DNA of 64,000 nt from Actinomycetota bacterium (GTDB taxonomy: Bacteria > Actinomycetota > Thermoleophilia > BMS3ABIN01). The DNA lies in contig JAMCPM010000008.1 of assembly GCA_023382335.1 (NCBI GenBank), positions 62,001-126,000 of the forward strand. The letters run 5' to 3'. The notes beneath the pieces are model-generated. The model did not search any database, had not been told where the DNA came from, and saw only the letters and a program-made list of their open reading frames with translations. Position numbers and translations under genes: made by a program. Below are positions 41,496 through 49,113 of this stretch, piece by piece (position 1 is the stretch's first letter; every line of letters begins with the position of its first letter).

Positions 41496-41574
41496 GGGGA
41501 CACATTACTTAATTCATGTCGATCATGTGCCAGAGCCTGTGTCCCTTTATCAATGAATTAAGTTATGTGTCCCC
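41496..41574. repeat. 22-bp inverted repeat between acsE and metF, possible REP-type element
   Basis: Arms at 41496-41517 and 41553-41574 match at 21 of 22 positions and begin with GGGGACACAT on opposite strands, enclosing 35 bases. The right arm contains the metF stop codon and encodes the final residues GGHIT of MetF. The left arm is just upstream of the acsE Shine-Dalgarno. Mobile palindromes with GGGGACA termini are common near RAYT transposases, but none is seen here. Confidence 0.7.
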
Positions 41575-43236: not shown

Positions 43237-45246
43237 TCATGTCGCCTTCCTGCATTTGAGTTCCGGTTCGATGCGCAGCTCGATCGAAGCGGGATCGAGC
43301 CCGGCTTCCCCGAGTGCTTTCTGCGCATCGGCGACCGCGGCGCGGGTCTGCCGGTGGCCGTGGACGAAATGGCCGTCGTCGTCCTCGCTGCAGACCGCCA
43401 CGTAGACTTTTTTTGCCCCGCTCTCAAAGGCATGCAGCAGCAGCCTGACGCTGAGCCTGCCGGTGCAGGGAAGCGATACCGCGGCTGCCTCGGGAGCGAC
43501 ACGCGACTGTGAATACCAGCAGCCGAATTCGAGCTCGCCGTTGCCTGAATCCGCAATCGCGGCAACGGTGCGGGCGGCGATGTCTTCCTCGGACATGACC
43601 GTGAGGTCGATAGCCTTGGCCGGACACTGGGTGAAACAGATGCCGCAGGCCTGGCACTTGTCCGGGTCGATACCGCCCAGGCCTTCCCCGTCGGCCCAGG
43701 GCGCGCCGTAAGGGCAGACGCGCACGCAGGTGAGACAGGCTATGCATTTGAGCTGCGAATACCTGGCGCCGCTGCCGCAGAGCAGGCAGCGAGAGGCCTC
43801 GCAGCGGCCGTCGACTTCGTCCAGGCCGGTCTCTACTTCCCCAAAATCCTTTAATCTCTCGCCGGCATCGCGCGCCGGCATCCTGCGTCGGGGCGCCTTT
43901 TTGACCTTATCCGCCACGTCAGCGGGAACCTCGCCGATGGCGGCCGGCTCGGGCCTGAAGTTGACATCGACGCCGAGATATCGTGCAACGGCGATAGCGG
44001 CCTTCTTGCCGCTCGCCAGCGCGTTGACCGCGGCGCCGGGCCCGGTCACCACCTCGCCGCTGGCAAAAACGCCGCGGCGCGTGGTCGTACACTGTTCCCG
44101 GTCGAATATGAGGATGCCGCGCTCGTTGACAGCCGGTCCCTCTTCGGGCAGGAAGGAAAGATTTGACATCTGACCGATGGAGACGATGACCGTGTCGCCG
44201 GGGACGACTGAAAGCTCGGTCTCACAGAAAGTCGGCGAGAAGCGGCCGTGCTCGTCGAAGACCGATTCGCATTTCTTTACCTGCAGCCCCTCGACCTTGC
44301 CCTCGCCCATAATTGCGTTCGGGCCCTGGCTGCAGACGATCTCGATGCCCTCGGCGCGGGCGTCCTCGATCTCCCATGCGTGAGCCGGCATCTCGTGGTC
44401 GGCCTCCAGGCAGACCATTGTCACCTTGCCGCCGGTGACGCGCCTGGCCGAACGGGCCACATCGATGGCGACGTTGCCGCCGCCGATGACGATTATTTCC
44501 TTGCCCAGTCCGGGGACTTCCCGGCCGGCGTTCACAGCTTCAAGGAACGGCACCGCCAGCAGCACCTGCGGCAGATCGGCGCCGGGAATCGGTAACGGCC
44601 GGCTTTCGGACAGCCCCGCGGCGATCAGCACCGCGTCGAATTCAGCCATAATGTCATTAAACTTTACCGCCCGGCCCACGTCGGCGTTTGTATAGATCTC
44701 GACACCCATTTTGCGGATATACTCGATGTCCTCATCAAGGATATCCTTCGGCAGCCTGTAGTTGAGGATGCCGGTCCTGAGGAAGCCGCCCGGTTCGGGC
44801 TGCTTCTCGAAAATGGTGGCCCGCACGCCCATGAGCGCCAGGTCGTGGGCCGCTCCCAGGCCTGAAGGACCCGAGCCGATTATGGCAACTTTCTTCCCCG
44901 TGGTAAATTCGATTTTCGGCGGCTCGAAGCCAAGGCCCGCTGCCCTGGCGCCGTCGCTGGCGACCCGTTTGATGTTGCAGATCGCGATTGGCTCGTCCAC
45001 GTCGCCACGCCGGCAGGCTTCTTCACAAGGATGGGGACAGATGCGCCCGATGACCTGCGGCAGAGGATTGGTTACCCTGACTACCGCAAGGGCCCGGGCA
45101 TCGTGTCCCTCGGCCACCAGCTGAATATAACGTTGAGCGTTAGTATGGATCGGACACGCGACCTCGCACGGAGGGCGCAGCATGGCATCGACCGGCCCGG
45201 GCCGCCCGAAAGATCTCGTGATGGCGCCAGTCAGTTCGCGCTCCAC
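43237..45246 (-). CDS. GltD/HdrA-like Fe-S flavoprotein fused to an MvhD-like domain
   Basis: This 669-residue protein has four parts. A GltD-type N-terminus carries cysteines CEVACPIHTN and ICPHPCEEACRRG. An FAD/NAD(P) oxidoreductase core follows (VAIIGSGPSGLGAAHDLALM; IIVIGGGNVAIDVARSAR). Two ferredoxin motifs come next (CIACLTCVRVCPYG; CQACGICFTQCPAKA). Last is an MvhD/FlpD-like C-terminal domain (FGCWYSQSR, LPCTGRLSVRLLLHAFESGA, VCSEDDDGHFVHGH). The MvhD part retains only some of the usual cysteines. Placed between acsC and metV, it is the likely electron-input subunit for MetFV, a condensed counterpart of the Moorella HdrCBA-MvhD-MetVF set. Whether it bifurcates electrons is unknown. Confidence 0.82.
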   Translation of the reverse strand: MERELTGAITRSFGRPGPVDAMLRPPCEVACPIHTNAQRYIQLVAEGHDARALAVVRVTNPLPQVIGRICPHPCEEACRRGDVDEPIAICNIKRVASDGARAAGLGFEPPKIEFTTGKKVAIIGSGPSGLGAAHDLALMGVRATIFEKQPEPGGFLRTGILNYRLPKDILDEDIEYIRKMGVEIYTNADVGRAVKFNDIMAEFDAVLIAAGLSESRPLPIPGADLPQVLLAVPFLEAVNAGREVPGLGKEIIVIGGGNVAIDVARSARRVTGGKVTMVCLEADHEMPAHAWEIEDARAEGIEIVCSQGPNAIMGEGKVEGLQVKKCESVFDEHGRFSPTFCETELSVVPGDTVIVSIGQMSNLSFLPEEGPAVNERGILIFDREQCTTTRRGVFASGEVVTGPGAAVNALASGKKAAIAVARYLGVDVNFRPEPAAIGEVPADVADKVKKAPRRRMPARDAGERLKDFGEVETGLDEVDGRCEASRCLLCGSGARYSQLKCIACLTCVRVCPYGAPWADGEGLGGIDPDKCQACGICFTQCPAKAIDLTVMSEEDIAARTVAAIADSGNGELEFGCWYSQSRVAPEAAAVSLPCTGRLSVRLLLHAFESGAKKVYVAVCSEDDDGHFVHGHRQTRAAVADAQKALGEAGLDPASIELRIEPELKCRKAT

Positions 45247-46577
45247 TGACGCAGGAATTTGGGGATGTCGGCGGCTTCACGAACCCCGACCTGCACTTCC
45301 CAGCCCTCGCCCAGCTCTTCATCGAGCTCGCCTGAGATCTGGGCCACGTAGCCGGGGATGATGACCTTCCTGTGCGGCGCCTTCTCCTCGATGCCGCTCT
45401 TCTTGAGGAAGGGCGCGATGGCGTCGGCCACGAACTTGCCGGCGGCCCAGGCGGTCAGCACCGACTGGCCCTCGACGTCCATGATGCACAGCCAGGCCGG
45501 CACCTTGCTGGCCTCGACCTCGGAGGAGACGGTGAAATATGTCAGCGAGAAGTTGGTGGTCACCAGGATCGGCGAATCCGGCCCCGGATCGTTGATCGGA
45601 TAGACGCCCTGGTCCATCTGCATCGGCCGCTGCGGGTCGGTGTAGATGTTCTGGCTCAAGTACAGCAGCGGCATCACCCGGGCCGGGTCCAGATCGGACA
45701 GGATGACAAAACCGGTGTACTTGGCGATGAAGACGGAAGCGTAGACCGCCTCGAGCATCTTGTCGCCGGTCATCAGACAGGGAAAACCTATAGTCGGGAA
45801 GCCCAGCGCGCGGAAGGTCTTCTTGATTGCGGCGCGGCGGATGAGCGTCTGGTTCATCAGCACATCGCCGAGCGAGCTGGAAGACGGGTCGAGTACGACT
45901 TCCTTGAAATCGCCGTCGAGCGCTTTCTGTCCCAGTTCGGCGAGTTTGTCAAGCGTATCGGCCTTGATGGCGAAGGGAACGTCGAGCTCCCTGGCCACCT
46001 CGGCGACGGCGTCGAAATTGGATTCGTTGGCGGCGTAGAGCAGCGGCTTGTTGGCCTTGATCGGCTCGGCGGCGGCCTTGAGCGCCGCGGCGTCGTCGCT
46101 CATGATCACGACGGCGGCACAGGCGATCTCGACGGCCATGGCCGCCAGCTTTGCGAGCTTGGCGGCGTCGTTGGACTTGACCGCCGCCAGGCGCGGCCTT
46201 AAGTTCTGGCCCACGTAGTTGAATTCAGTCTGCTTGAGCTGTGTCAGCAGGGAAGCGACCTGCGCCTCGTCCATCTCATCGGTGATCAGCACGCCCAGGC
46301 CGGGAAGATGCTCGAAGCGCTTCTCGTGCCTGTAGAGGACTGTTTCCTCACCGACGGTGACAGCCATGTCGCCGGAGCCGACGGTTACCTTGCGCACCGG
46401 GGGAGCAGAAGCCTCGCCCAGGGCTGCTTTGGCCTCATCGCTGACGTAGGGGCACTGGTCCAGCTCCGCCTTGCCGGCGGCAAGCTGCATGGCGAAAGCC
46501 ATACAAGTCGGAAACCCGCACTCCTTGCAGTTAGTCTTGGCAAGCAGCTTGAATATTTGCAGACCGCTAAGAGCCAC
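45231..46577 (-). CDS. acsC: Corrinoid iron-sulfur protein large subunit
   Basis: The 448-residue protein (the family is about 446) starts at GTG after GGGAG. The N-terminal domain has the [4Fe-4S] motif TNCKECGFPTCMAFAMQLAA and a later Cys in LDQCPY. A TIM barrel and the C-terminal cobamide-binding domain follow. With AcsD it carries the methyl group from AcsE to acetyl-CoA synthase. It overlaps the downstream oxidoreductase by 16 bases. A 337-base structured gap separates it from acsB. Confidence 0.95.
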   Translation of the reverse strand: MALSGLQIFKLLAKTNCKECGFPTCMAFAMQLAAGKAELDQCPYVSDEAKAALGEASAPPVRKVTVGSGDMAVTVGEETVLYRHEKRFEHLPGLGVLITDEMDEAQVASLLTQLKQTEFNYVGQNLRPRLAAVKSNDAAKLAKLAAMAVEIACAAVVIMSDDAAALKAAAEPIKANKPLLYAANESNFDAVAEVARELDVPFAIKADTLDKLAELGQKALDGDFKEVVLDPSSSSLGDVLMNQTLIRRAAIKKTFRALGFPTIGFPCLMTGDKMLEAVYASVFIAKYTGFVILSDLDPARVMPLLYLSQNIYTDPQRPMQMDQGVYPINDPGPDSPILVTTNFSLTYFTVSSEVEASKVPAWLCIMDVEGQSVLTAWAAGKFVADAIAPFLKKSGIEEKAPHRKVIIPGYVAQISGELDEELGEGWEVQVGVREAADIPKFLRQWSAN

Positions 46578-46632
46578 AGCTCACACTCCCTTCAAAACCG
46601 CGTACTTTGTTGATAAGAACTTTGAATAGGTC

Positions 46633-46686
46633 CAGGCTAATTTGCCCTGATGACAAGCAAGACGAGTCACATGGCAAATTAGCCTG
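46633..46686. repeat. Perfect 14-bp inverted repeat upstream of acsC
   Basis: CAGGCTAATTTGCC at 46633-46646 and its exact complement at 46673-46686 enclose 26 bases. The repeat lies about 56 bases upstream of the acsC start. It could form an RNA hairpin in the leader or bind a dimeric regulator. It is A/T-richer than its surroundings. Confidence 0.7.
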
Positions 46687-46770
46687 TACCCGTTTAACCC
46701 TTTTCAAGAAATGCACGGTCTTGCGGCCATGCGCGGAAATCAAACACAAACGAACGGTCCCGGAAAAGAC

Positions 46771-46903
46771 CCGGTGGCCGAACAGGTTTCACCGGCGGGG
46801 GCGGGCTTTCCCGCAGCGGCACTCTTGAGCGCGCAAACGGCTGGTCTTTATAGACCGGGCCTGTGCGCGAACGGTGCCGCCAGGGGAAGCCCACCCCCGC
46901 CGG
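46771..46903 (-). ncRNA. Nested intergenic hairpin between acsB and acsC (candidate cis-regulatory RNA)
   Basis: Starting 12 bases after the acsB stop, a segment of about 112 bases folds into one long hairpin. The outer imperfect arms are 46883-46903 and 46792-46812 (about 20 bp). Inside are GTGCCGC/GCGGCAC, TGCGCG/CGCGCA, and a terminal GGTCT-TTAT-AGACC stem-loop. A second helix, CCGGTG (46771-46776) with CACCGG (46790-46795), uses four bases of the outer arm, so the two folds exclude each other. I recognise no known riboswitch class. The rest of 46578-46914 holds no gene. Confidence 0.55.
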
Positions 46904-46914
46904 AAATAAACAGC

Positions 46915-49113
46915 TTAGAACATCGGGTCCATTTCCAGGGCCGGATGGCCGACCTTGGTCAGGTACTCGAGCACTTCCGATTCCTCGGTGGCCTCTTCCT
47001 CGGTGCAGATCTTGTCCACCAGGTCCGGGGCGCCGGCCTTCTCGGCCGCCTTCTCAAGGATCTCGCGCATCTCTTCCTTGAGCTCCTTGGGCATCCAGAC
47101 CAGGCGCTTGATGCCGCCGTCGGCTGAGATGAACTTGGGCGAGCCCATGTAGAAACGGGAGTGCCCCAGGAAGCCCGGGCTCTGCACGCCGCCGCCGACC
47201 GAACCGGCCAGGGTCGAGAACTTCATGCCCGAAGGCGTCTCGCCCTTGAACTCGCGGTTGACGGTCATGATGCCGTTGCACATCGGCAGGATGCAGCTGA
47301 TGACCTCGAAGCAGCCGCAGGAGGTCATGGGGTTCTCGAGCATGGAGTAGGTGTTGAACGCCTCTACCATTCCCTGTGAATGTTCCTTGACGTACTCGTT
47401 GACGCCGCTCCACTGGCCGCGGGCCTCGTCGACGGTCTCGCCCTTGGCGACCGGCTGGTTGCCACCCGTCGGATTCATCTCATAGGCGGCCTTGCCGTCG
47501 AGCCAGTTGTAAGAGCCGCAGAGGCCCGGACGCTCCGGCGTGATCACGCAGACGTGCGTGGGCGCGAAGCTCTGGCAGAGGATACAGGAATAGAAGGTGT
47601 CGACGCTCTCGTCGGTCAGGCTTCCCAGGCGCTCGTCACGCTCGTGGTATGCCTTGGTGGCCTTCTCGAGGATGCGCTCGACATCTTCCTGTTTGGTATA
47701 GATGGTGACCTGGACCTTGTCCACGACCTCGCCGAAATCGGCGTGATAGCGGGCATGGATGATCTTGCCGAGATGCTCGAAGGTGAAGCCGGCCTCCTTG
47801 GCCCGGTTGCTGATGCGCATCCAGACGGTGTCGCGCTGACCCATGTGCAGCACGCCCTCGGCCTCGTTGAAGAACGTGTGGCCCTGGCGCTCGAGGATCG
47901 GCTCGAAGTCTTTCTGCATCTTGCGGCCGGAGACCTCGACGTGGATGGCGAACGGAACCGTGGAGCCCTGCTCGAGATCGGCGATCTCGGGGCCTACCAC
48001 CGTGACCTTGCCGTCCTCGACGTCATCGGCGATCTCGGTGAACTCGCAGCCGATCGACTTGGGACCGGCCATCTCCACCCAGTACTCACCCTTGCGGATG
48101 CGCTCCCCCTCGAAAGCGGGGCTGTAGGCAACCGGCACAGGAACCTCGGTGACGACGACCTTGAGTCCGCGCACTTCGATGGCGCGGGCAACGATGTCGT
48201 TGCATTCGACGTTGCTGACCACGTGCTCGTAGGTGCAGACGCCGGTCGGCAGGATCTCGGGGATGTCGCTAGTGGCGATGGTCGGGAAGCCATAGGAGAT
48301 GGCGCCGGCCGCCGCGGCGTATTTCTTGTCGGTCACATGACCGAAGGCCAGCACGAAGGCGAAGACCCGGTCCTTGTTATATTTGAGGACGTTGCGGTAA
48401 TCGCCGGGCTGGACGCCGCCGAAGGCGAGCGCCGCGCGCGTGGCGAAACCAAGCGACCAGATATGGCCGGAGACGTAGGGGCTGAAGGGCACCAGGCGGG
48501 TGTTCCAGCCCAGCTCGACGCCGCCCTCCACCAGCTGCTCGGCGAAGCTGACGCCGTTGTCCTTGCCGGCGATGAAGACATAGAGCATCTTCTGTTTCAG
48601 TTCCTGGGCGATCTGCACCGCGGTCTCGACGTCCGGAGCCGCGCCGGTGATGGCGGCGAATCCGGGGGCGGTGCCGTCGACGAACTCGACGCCGCGCTCG
48701 CGCATGATGACGTCGTCAGCAGCACCGAGCCAGAGGTTGTCTTCCGTGGGCGCGTCGGTCTCGGAATAGAAACCGGGCTCCAGCACGTACCTCAGCGACT
48801 CGAGGATCTCGCAGGAGAACAGGGTGGCGACGCCGGCGTCCAGCGCCGTGCCCAGATACGGGGTCCACAGCTTCGCGGCCGGACCCTCGGGCAGCAGCTC
48901 GCGGGCGTGCTTTAAGGGCGCCTCCATGTCCTTGACCTTCTCGACCTTCATGCCGGTCAGGCCGTAGATGACCGGCAGATAATAGCCGGTGTTGGGCAGA
49001 TTGATGTCGGCCTCGGGGCCGGCGGTATCGATCGCCTTCTGCAGGGCTTCCTCGGCCTCGTTGACGAACTGGTGGGCTCCGGCGATAACCGATGATGCGA
49101 TTAATTTGCTCAT
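46915..49113 (-). CDS. acsB: Acetyl-CoA synthase (CO dehydrogenase/ACS complex beta subunit)
   Basis: The 732-residue protein matches bacterial AcsB in length (about 729). The A-cluster ligands are visible near residues 510-610: SCILCQSFAPTHVC, GLCGSYNWLDG and TSCGCFEV. The N-terminal domain contacts CooS, and the C-terminal domain receives the methyl group. The ATG is preceded by a strong AGGAGGAG site lying across the cooS stop. It condenses CO, methyl and CoA to acetyl-CoA. Confidence 0.97.
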   Translation of the reverse strand: MSKLIASSVIAGAHQFVNEAEEALQKAIDTAGPEADINLPNTGYYLPVIYGLTGMKVEKVKDMEAPLKHARELLPEGPAAKLWTPYLGTALDAGVATLFSCEILESLRYVLEPGFYSETDAPTEDNLWLGAADDVIMRERGVEFVDGTAPGFAAITGAAPDVETAVQIAQELKQKMLYVFIAGKDNGVSFAEQLVEGGVELGWNTRLVPFSPYVSGHIWSLGFATRAALAFGGVQPGDYRNVLKYNKDRVFAFVLAFGHVTDKKYAAAAGAISYGFPTIATSDIPEILPTGVCTYEHVVSNVECNDIVARAIEVRGLKVVVTEVPVPVAYSPAFEGERIRKGEYWVEMAGPKSIGCEFTEIADDVEDGKVTVVGPEIADLEQGSTVPFAIHVEVSGRKMQKDFEPILERQGHTFFNEAEGVLHMGQRDTVWMRISNRAKEAGFTFEHLGKIIHARYHADFGEVVDKVQVTIYTKQEDVERILEKATKAYHERDERLGSLTDESVDTFYSCILCQSFAPTHVCVITPERPGLCGSYNWLDGKAAYEMNPTGGNQPVAKGETVDEARGQWSGVNEYVKEHSQGMVEAFNTYSMLENPMTSCGCFEVISCILPMCNGIMTVNREFKGETPSGMKFSTLAGSVGGGVQSPGFLGHSRFYMGSPKFISADGGIKRLVWMPKELKEEMREILEKAAEKAGAPDLVDKICTEEEATEESEVLEYLTKVGHPALEMDPMF

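Follow-up and report, generated by a model that had tools for sequence, protein, structure and literature searches.

The long hairpin between acsB and acsC of an Actinomycetota genome is probably one copy of a low-copy, dispersed intergenic hairpin repeat

Results

A nested hairpin in the acsB-acsC gap

We analyzed a window of 64,000 nucleotides (the whole stretch of DNA under study) from a genome of 2.45 Mb, labelled G000. As presented in Table 1, the window carries acsB and acsC, separated by 337 bases in a cluster whose adjacent gaps are short or overlapping. The acs genes were assigned by Pfam, and gene names outside the acs cluster were read from translations. A nested hairpin of 112 bases begins 11 bases past the acsB stop codon. 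Folding of positions 46771-46903 gave -92.9 kcal/mol (z = -8.6), a value that 0 of 200 shuffles equalled or bettered, which confirms the original prediction of a nested hairpin of about 112 bases after acsB in the 337-base gap of a tight operon. The hairpin folds on the acs sense strand too, and the covariance model R1 scored the acs copy at 99.8 bits on the plus strand and at 40.8 bits on the minus strand.

Table 1. Features of the acsB-acsC region, with positions in the window.
Feature	Position	Strand	Basis or remark
acsC, corrinoid iron-sulfur protein, large subunit	45231-46577	-	Pfam CdhD, FeS
Second inverted repeat CAGGCTAATTTGCC .. GGCAAATTAGCCTG, 28-nt	46622-46697	+	Unrelated to the acs hairpin, same gap
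Weak alternative helix CCGGTG/CACCGG	46771-46795	+	46771-46776 pairs with 46790-46795
Hairpin repeat, subfamily A	46792-46903	+ (motif orientation, antisense to acs genes)	Fold, model R1 and relatives
Left arm, outer stem	46792-46812	+	Copy-specific sequence; 90% complementary to right arm
Left conserved core GCAGCGGCACTCTTGAGCGCGC	46813-46834	+	rpmA/obgE copy identical from AGCGGCAC onward; relatives in A3, A4
Variable apical part with small hairpin GGTC..GACC	46835-46864	+	
Right conserved core GCGCGAACGGTGCCGCCA	46865-46882	+	Identical in rpmA/obgE copy; relatives in A3, A4
Right arm, outer stem	46883-46903	+	90% complementary to left arm
acsB, acetyl-CoA synthase, beta subunit of CODH/ACS	46915-49113	-	Pfam CdhC, ACS_CODH_B_C, CODH_A_N

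The strong stem just past the acsB stop codon could be read as a site of intrinsic transcription termination or attenuation ahead of acsC. We consider this very improbable, as a T tract is absent on both sides of the stem, and the two terminator-like matches in the gap are weak, lie away from the stem and are no more than expected by chance. The competing CCGGTG/CACCGG helix that had been described along with the hairpin does exist and overlaps the big stem, at its outermost 4 pairs only. As a competitor it is weak: alone it reaches -10.0 kcal/mol, versus about -90 kcal/mol for the long hairpin, and it is disrupted in the ortholog of genome G007 and hence not conserved.

The second inverted repeat of the same gap is also found in G007, where a compensated double change turns one T-A pair into A-T and a position mismatched in G000 is paired.

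Relatives of the hairpin in unrelated gaps

A search of its own genome with the acs hairpin gave another copy, located in the rpmA/obgE gap (G000:C11:359375-359481), and further relatives lie in the rplJ/rplL gap and near an ahbA-like gene. Using R1 and then a wider model, R2, we found relatives in seven other genomes belonging to genera g1, g5 and g6 of one family. G007 holds the orthologous acs copy, and G016, from another genus, several dispersed copies. The rplJ/rplL site is occupied in G000, G005 and G008, in each of which the copy begins at or beside the rplJ stop codon; the site beside the ahbA-like gene in G000, G007 and G003; argB/argD in G005; lepA/murJ in G004 and G005; and acs-operon sites also in G003 and G017. 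The family is dispersed mostly at operon and gene-end sites, most members being flanked by co-directional genes or lying downstream of a gene. Since the same genome has relatives in intergenic gaps unrelated to acs, the hairpin is not acs-specific; such copies are what the original prediction had itself named as evidence against an acs-specific RNA.

The genomes compared are metagenome-assembled, and the named relatives are called Thermoleophilia or Actinomycetes. Among the 399 genomes of the class that were searched, matches were confined to the one family, with at least about 2-8 matches per positive genome, a lower bound for which up to 150 candidates were scored in each. A census of 396 kb of the genome of origin returned six strong hairpins, none from the acs hairpin family at that cut-off. 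The statement that the fold matches no RNA class holds: Rfam gave nothing above gathering score, and at loose thresholds only eukaryotic microRNA or snoRNA models or weak sRNA matches, all sub-threshold. We also found no description of the family in the literature searched.

Viral contigs gave six exact-pattern matches, of which only one was partial and core-like (21.8 bits) and the rest weaker or none, so weak that we took them as chance.

A conserved core inside variable, paired arms

In motif orientation, the family layout is an arm of about 20 nt, CCC-GYA-GC-GA-CCC, an inner part of about 8 to 50 nt, GGG-GA-GC-AA-GGG and the second arm. Of 16 aligned copies, 14 have tandem G.A/A.G mismatches (columns 23.88 and 24.87 of alignment A4), in one case as G.A/G.G; the acs and obg copies of G000 have G-C pairs there. 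These tandem mismatches suggest that the specially folding strand is the acs antisense one. The apical part is of similar length in most copies and of unrelated sequence. The acs and rpmA/obgE copies share long identical core stretches. Their outer stems are unlike, yet each remains paired in register, a number of positions having undergone double changes. Across copies, the A4 structure held 62 double-changed cells versus 25.9 in shuffles, for a covariation score of 0.385 versus 0.159, and slid registers reached at most 38 cells. Over 18 copies, an arm pairs with its own partner at 95% of positions and with the partner of another copy at 67% (best of five shifts), and the left arms of different copies share only 48% identity. 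It is therefore the pairing that is kept, not the sequence.

Occupancy and change at orthologous sites

We compared the acsB-acsC gap among relatives. It measures 337 nt in G000 and 332 nt in G007, versus 72 nt in G005, 70 nt in G004, 104 nt in G003 and 111 nt in G008, all of the same genus; overall, it spans 68-72 nt in G001, G002, G004 and G005 and 90-122 nt in G013, G003, G008 and G015. Several relatives have a gap of 68-111 nt that is free of any hairpin. The family hairpin is absent from this gap in G003, G004, G005 and G008, and a member is present in G000, G007, G016 and G017, that is, in three genera (G000/G007, G016 and G017). At one and the same site, the element is thus present in some close relatives and absent in others. 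The rplJ/rplL copy is likewise missing in G003, G006 and G007.

Other inverted repeats occur in this gap. G003 and G009 hold GGGGACAC-type palindromes instead, unrelated to the acs hairpin, and other hairpins lie in the gap of G011, G012 and G018. In the 397-nt gap of G016 (L096 6092-6490), several arms of the element, both left and right, lie nested within one another.

Compared with its G007 ortholog, the acs hairpin of G000 differs by 10 substitutions over 108 positions plus 4 gap positions, and thus changes as fast as the adjacent gap DNA (10/94). Four pairs are broken and none is compensated. This comparison is weak evidence for an acs copy that would be under no constraint, because only two genomes bear on it. 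The idea of a conserved acs regulator with covariation at the same gene did not hold, with no compensated pair in this one close ortholog pair and no hairpin in same-genus genomes.

An acs-specific riboswitch or attenuator, for example a cobamide-sensing one toggling between the long hairpin and CCGGTG/CACCGG, would draw on a stable fold and an alternative pairing that are both in the sequence. With relatives adjoining unrelated genes, no Rfam match, so weak an alternative helix and no family hairpin in the gap of four genomes, we regard it as most unlikely. We do not read the acs hairpin as a dedicated acsB/acsC switch, and the data speak neither for a riboswitch nor for a conserved switch, which removes a tempting lead on acs regulation that we take to be wrong. 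Among the three options originally offered (AcsB:AcsC stoichiometry, ligand sensing and a mobile palindrome), a dispersed palindrome is favoured by the occupancy of unrelated gaps, and a ligand-sensing riboswitch is left unsupported.

The lepA/murJ gap provided a neat case for inversion or template switching at palindromes. Between G004 and G005 (L288 and L289), flanks and arms align and the element is inverted, the interior aligning only with the hairpin reverse-complemented; in the arms, compensated double changes separate the two genomes at two positions. The orientation of the element therefore differs between two species at one site.

Another reading is a host-maintained processing or stability module, in which the core (tandem G.A/A.G and a GYA/AA loop) would be bound by a trans-acting nuclease or protein and would set the upstream:downstream product ratio in the acsB/acsC, rplJ/rplL and rpmA/obgE operons. 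Such a module would fit a nearly invariant core beside variable arms and apex, sites often directly past stop codons in operons with plausible stoichiometry differences, the compensated arm changes in the lepA/murJ orthologs and the presence of an acs gap member in three genera. It is at odds with the many species without a hairpin at the same sites, the inverted orientation at lepA/murJ and an acs copy conserved no better than its flanks. In addition, G-U pairs show no overall strand bias (72/871 versus 70/897). We therefore hold this module to be possible and rather unlikely.

Mobilising enzyme and insertion traces

We identified neither a mobilising enzyme nor a target-site duplication, nor a clean empty site; a target-site or TA call was hampered because, in relatives that lack the element, the corresponding gaps are too dissimilar. 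Inspection of 17 Y1_Tnp loci revealed no family hairpin alongside any of them, and only two isolated GYAGCGACC matches. Several of these loci adjoin GGGGACAC-type sequences. RAYT transposases were therefore rejected as the mobiliser, as they adjoin that type of sequence and not the acs-type hairpin.

Discussion

Comparison with known repeats

REPs, which RAYT mobilises, are palindromes of 20-40 bp, one of whose ends bears an unpaired tag, GTAG or CGTC (PMC3733652, PMC2817692). Like them, the acs-type elements are extragenic palindromes, mostly downstream, between co-directional or convergent ORFs, with suspected RNA-level effects (PMC3733652, PMC2817692). In contrast with REPs, they measure about 65-112 bp, occur in few copies (at least about 2-8 per positive genome) where REPs are of high copy number, have their conserved part within the stem, and lack a GTAG/CGTC tag at the hairpin foot, GYAG being inside the stem; none flanks a Y1 transposase (RAYT) gene at the 17 loci. 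ERIC, NEMIS/Correia and similar repeats, of about 100-155 bp, resemble them as long stem-loops, like MITE-like elements, in transcribed intergenic gaps that can alter neighbouring mRNA (PMC2229807, PMC2267715). In Yersinia, ERIC RNA is reported to alter upstream transcript stability in an orientation-dependent manner (PMC2229807). As a dispersed, non-coding, intergenic stem-loop, the acs-type family falls within the MITE/ERIC-like range of about 70-300 bp. MITEs keep terminal inverted repeats, often with a TA target, whereas nothing in the acs-type element varies more than its arms, and neither a TSD nor a TA target is established for it.

The TIR repeats of TIRYT transposases, GGGGWSAS (PMC3733652), share these genomes with the acs-type elements and occupy, among other places, the acsB-acsC gaps of G003 and G009, but they differ in sequence, and acs-type elements are without GGGGACAC ends. 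The palindrome GGGGACACATTACTTAATTCAT (window positions 41496-41574), at the end of a metF-like gene, is of this GGGGWSAS type of TIRYT/RAYT transposons, a kind that several Y1 transposases also have next to them.

A dispersed repeat with constrained cores

We consider that the acs hairpin is probably one copy of a low-copy dispersed intergenic hairpin repeat family, REP/ERIC-like. This family is likely peculiar, as found so far, to an uncultivated, acetogen-like Thermoleophilia-type Actinomycetota family. Copies would be placed or exchanged at the DNA level, by an enzyme or by palindrome replication and recombination, and would be tolerated in transcribed gaps right after stop codons. Much like REP and ERIC, such copies may, through their RNA stem, have a modest effect on the stability of the upstream mRNA or on expression of the downstream gene. 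A location downstream of a gene or flanked by two co-directional ones is usual for REP and ERIC (PMC3733652; PMC2229807). Since members are placed in the same way, we read the acs copy as a presumed passenger repeat with a possible local influence on mRNA stability.

Several findings run against a repeat: besides the negative result for a mobiliser and insertion traces, conservation is lowest in the arms, in contrast to the conserved terminal repeats of MITEs, copies per genome are few, and the acsB-acsC gap is occupied in three genera. Near-identical cores between copies with diverged arms hint at a constraint unlike that of a dead repeat. There is thus a tension between cores that look constrained across copies and single copies that are lost, flipped or drifting; a trans-acting factor recognising the core, or copying plus loss, would explain both. 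A speculative extension, to which we give a low probability, is a new class of element with a fixed, factor-recognised tandem-G.A core and arms remade or corrected as perfect inverted repeats, forming portable operon-gap modules. Copies of such a class would share the core and not the stem, could nest in one another and could flip orientation.

As a dispersed repeat, the family is apparently unnamed and of unusual layout, conserved inside and free but paired outside. Its orthologous sites at rplJ/rplL, ahb, lepA/murJ and acsB/acsC offer natural tests of the origin, inversion, correction and loss of palindromes, and of whether palindromes tune operon stoichiometry.

In the rpmA-obgE gap, rpmA is followed in most genomes of the family by a conserved hairpin that, with its T run, resembles a terminator (L260, L263-L267). 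Some have an extra small reading frame ahead of obgE, and a further long hairpin lies in this gap of G003.
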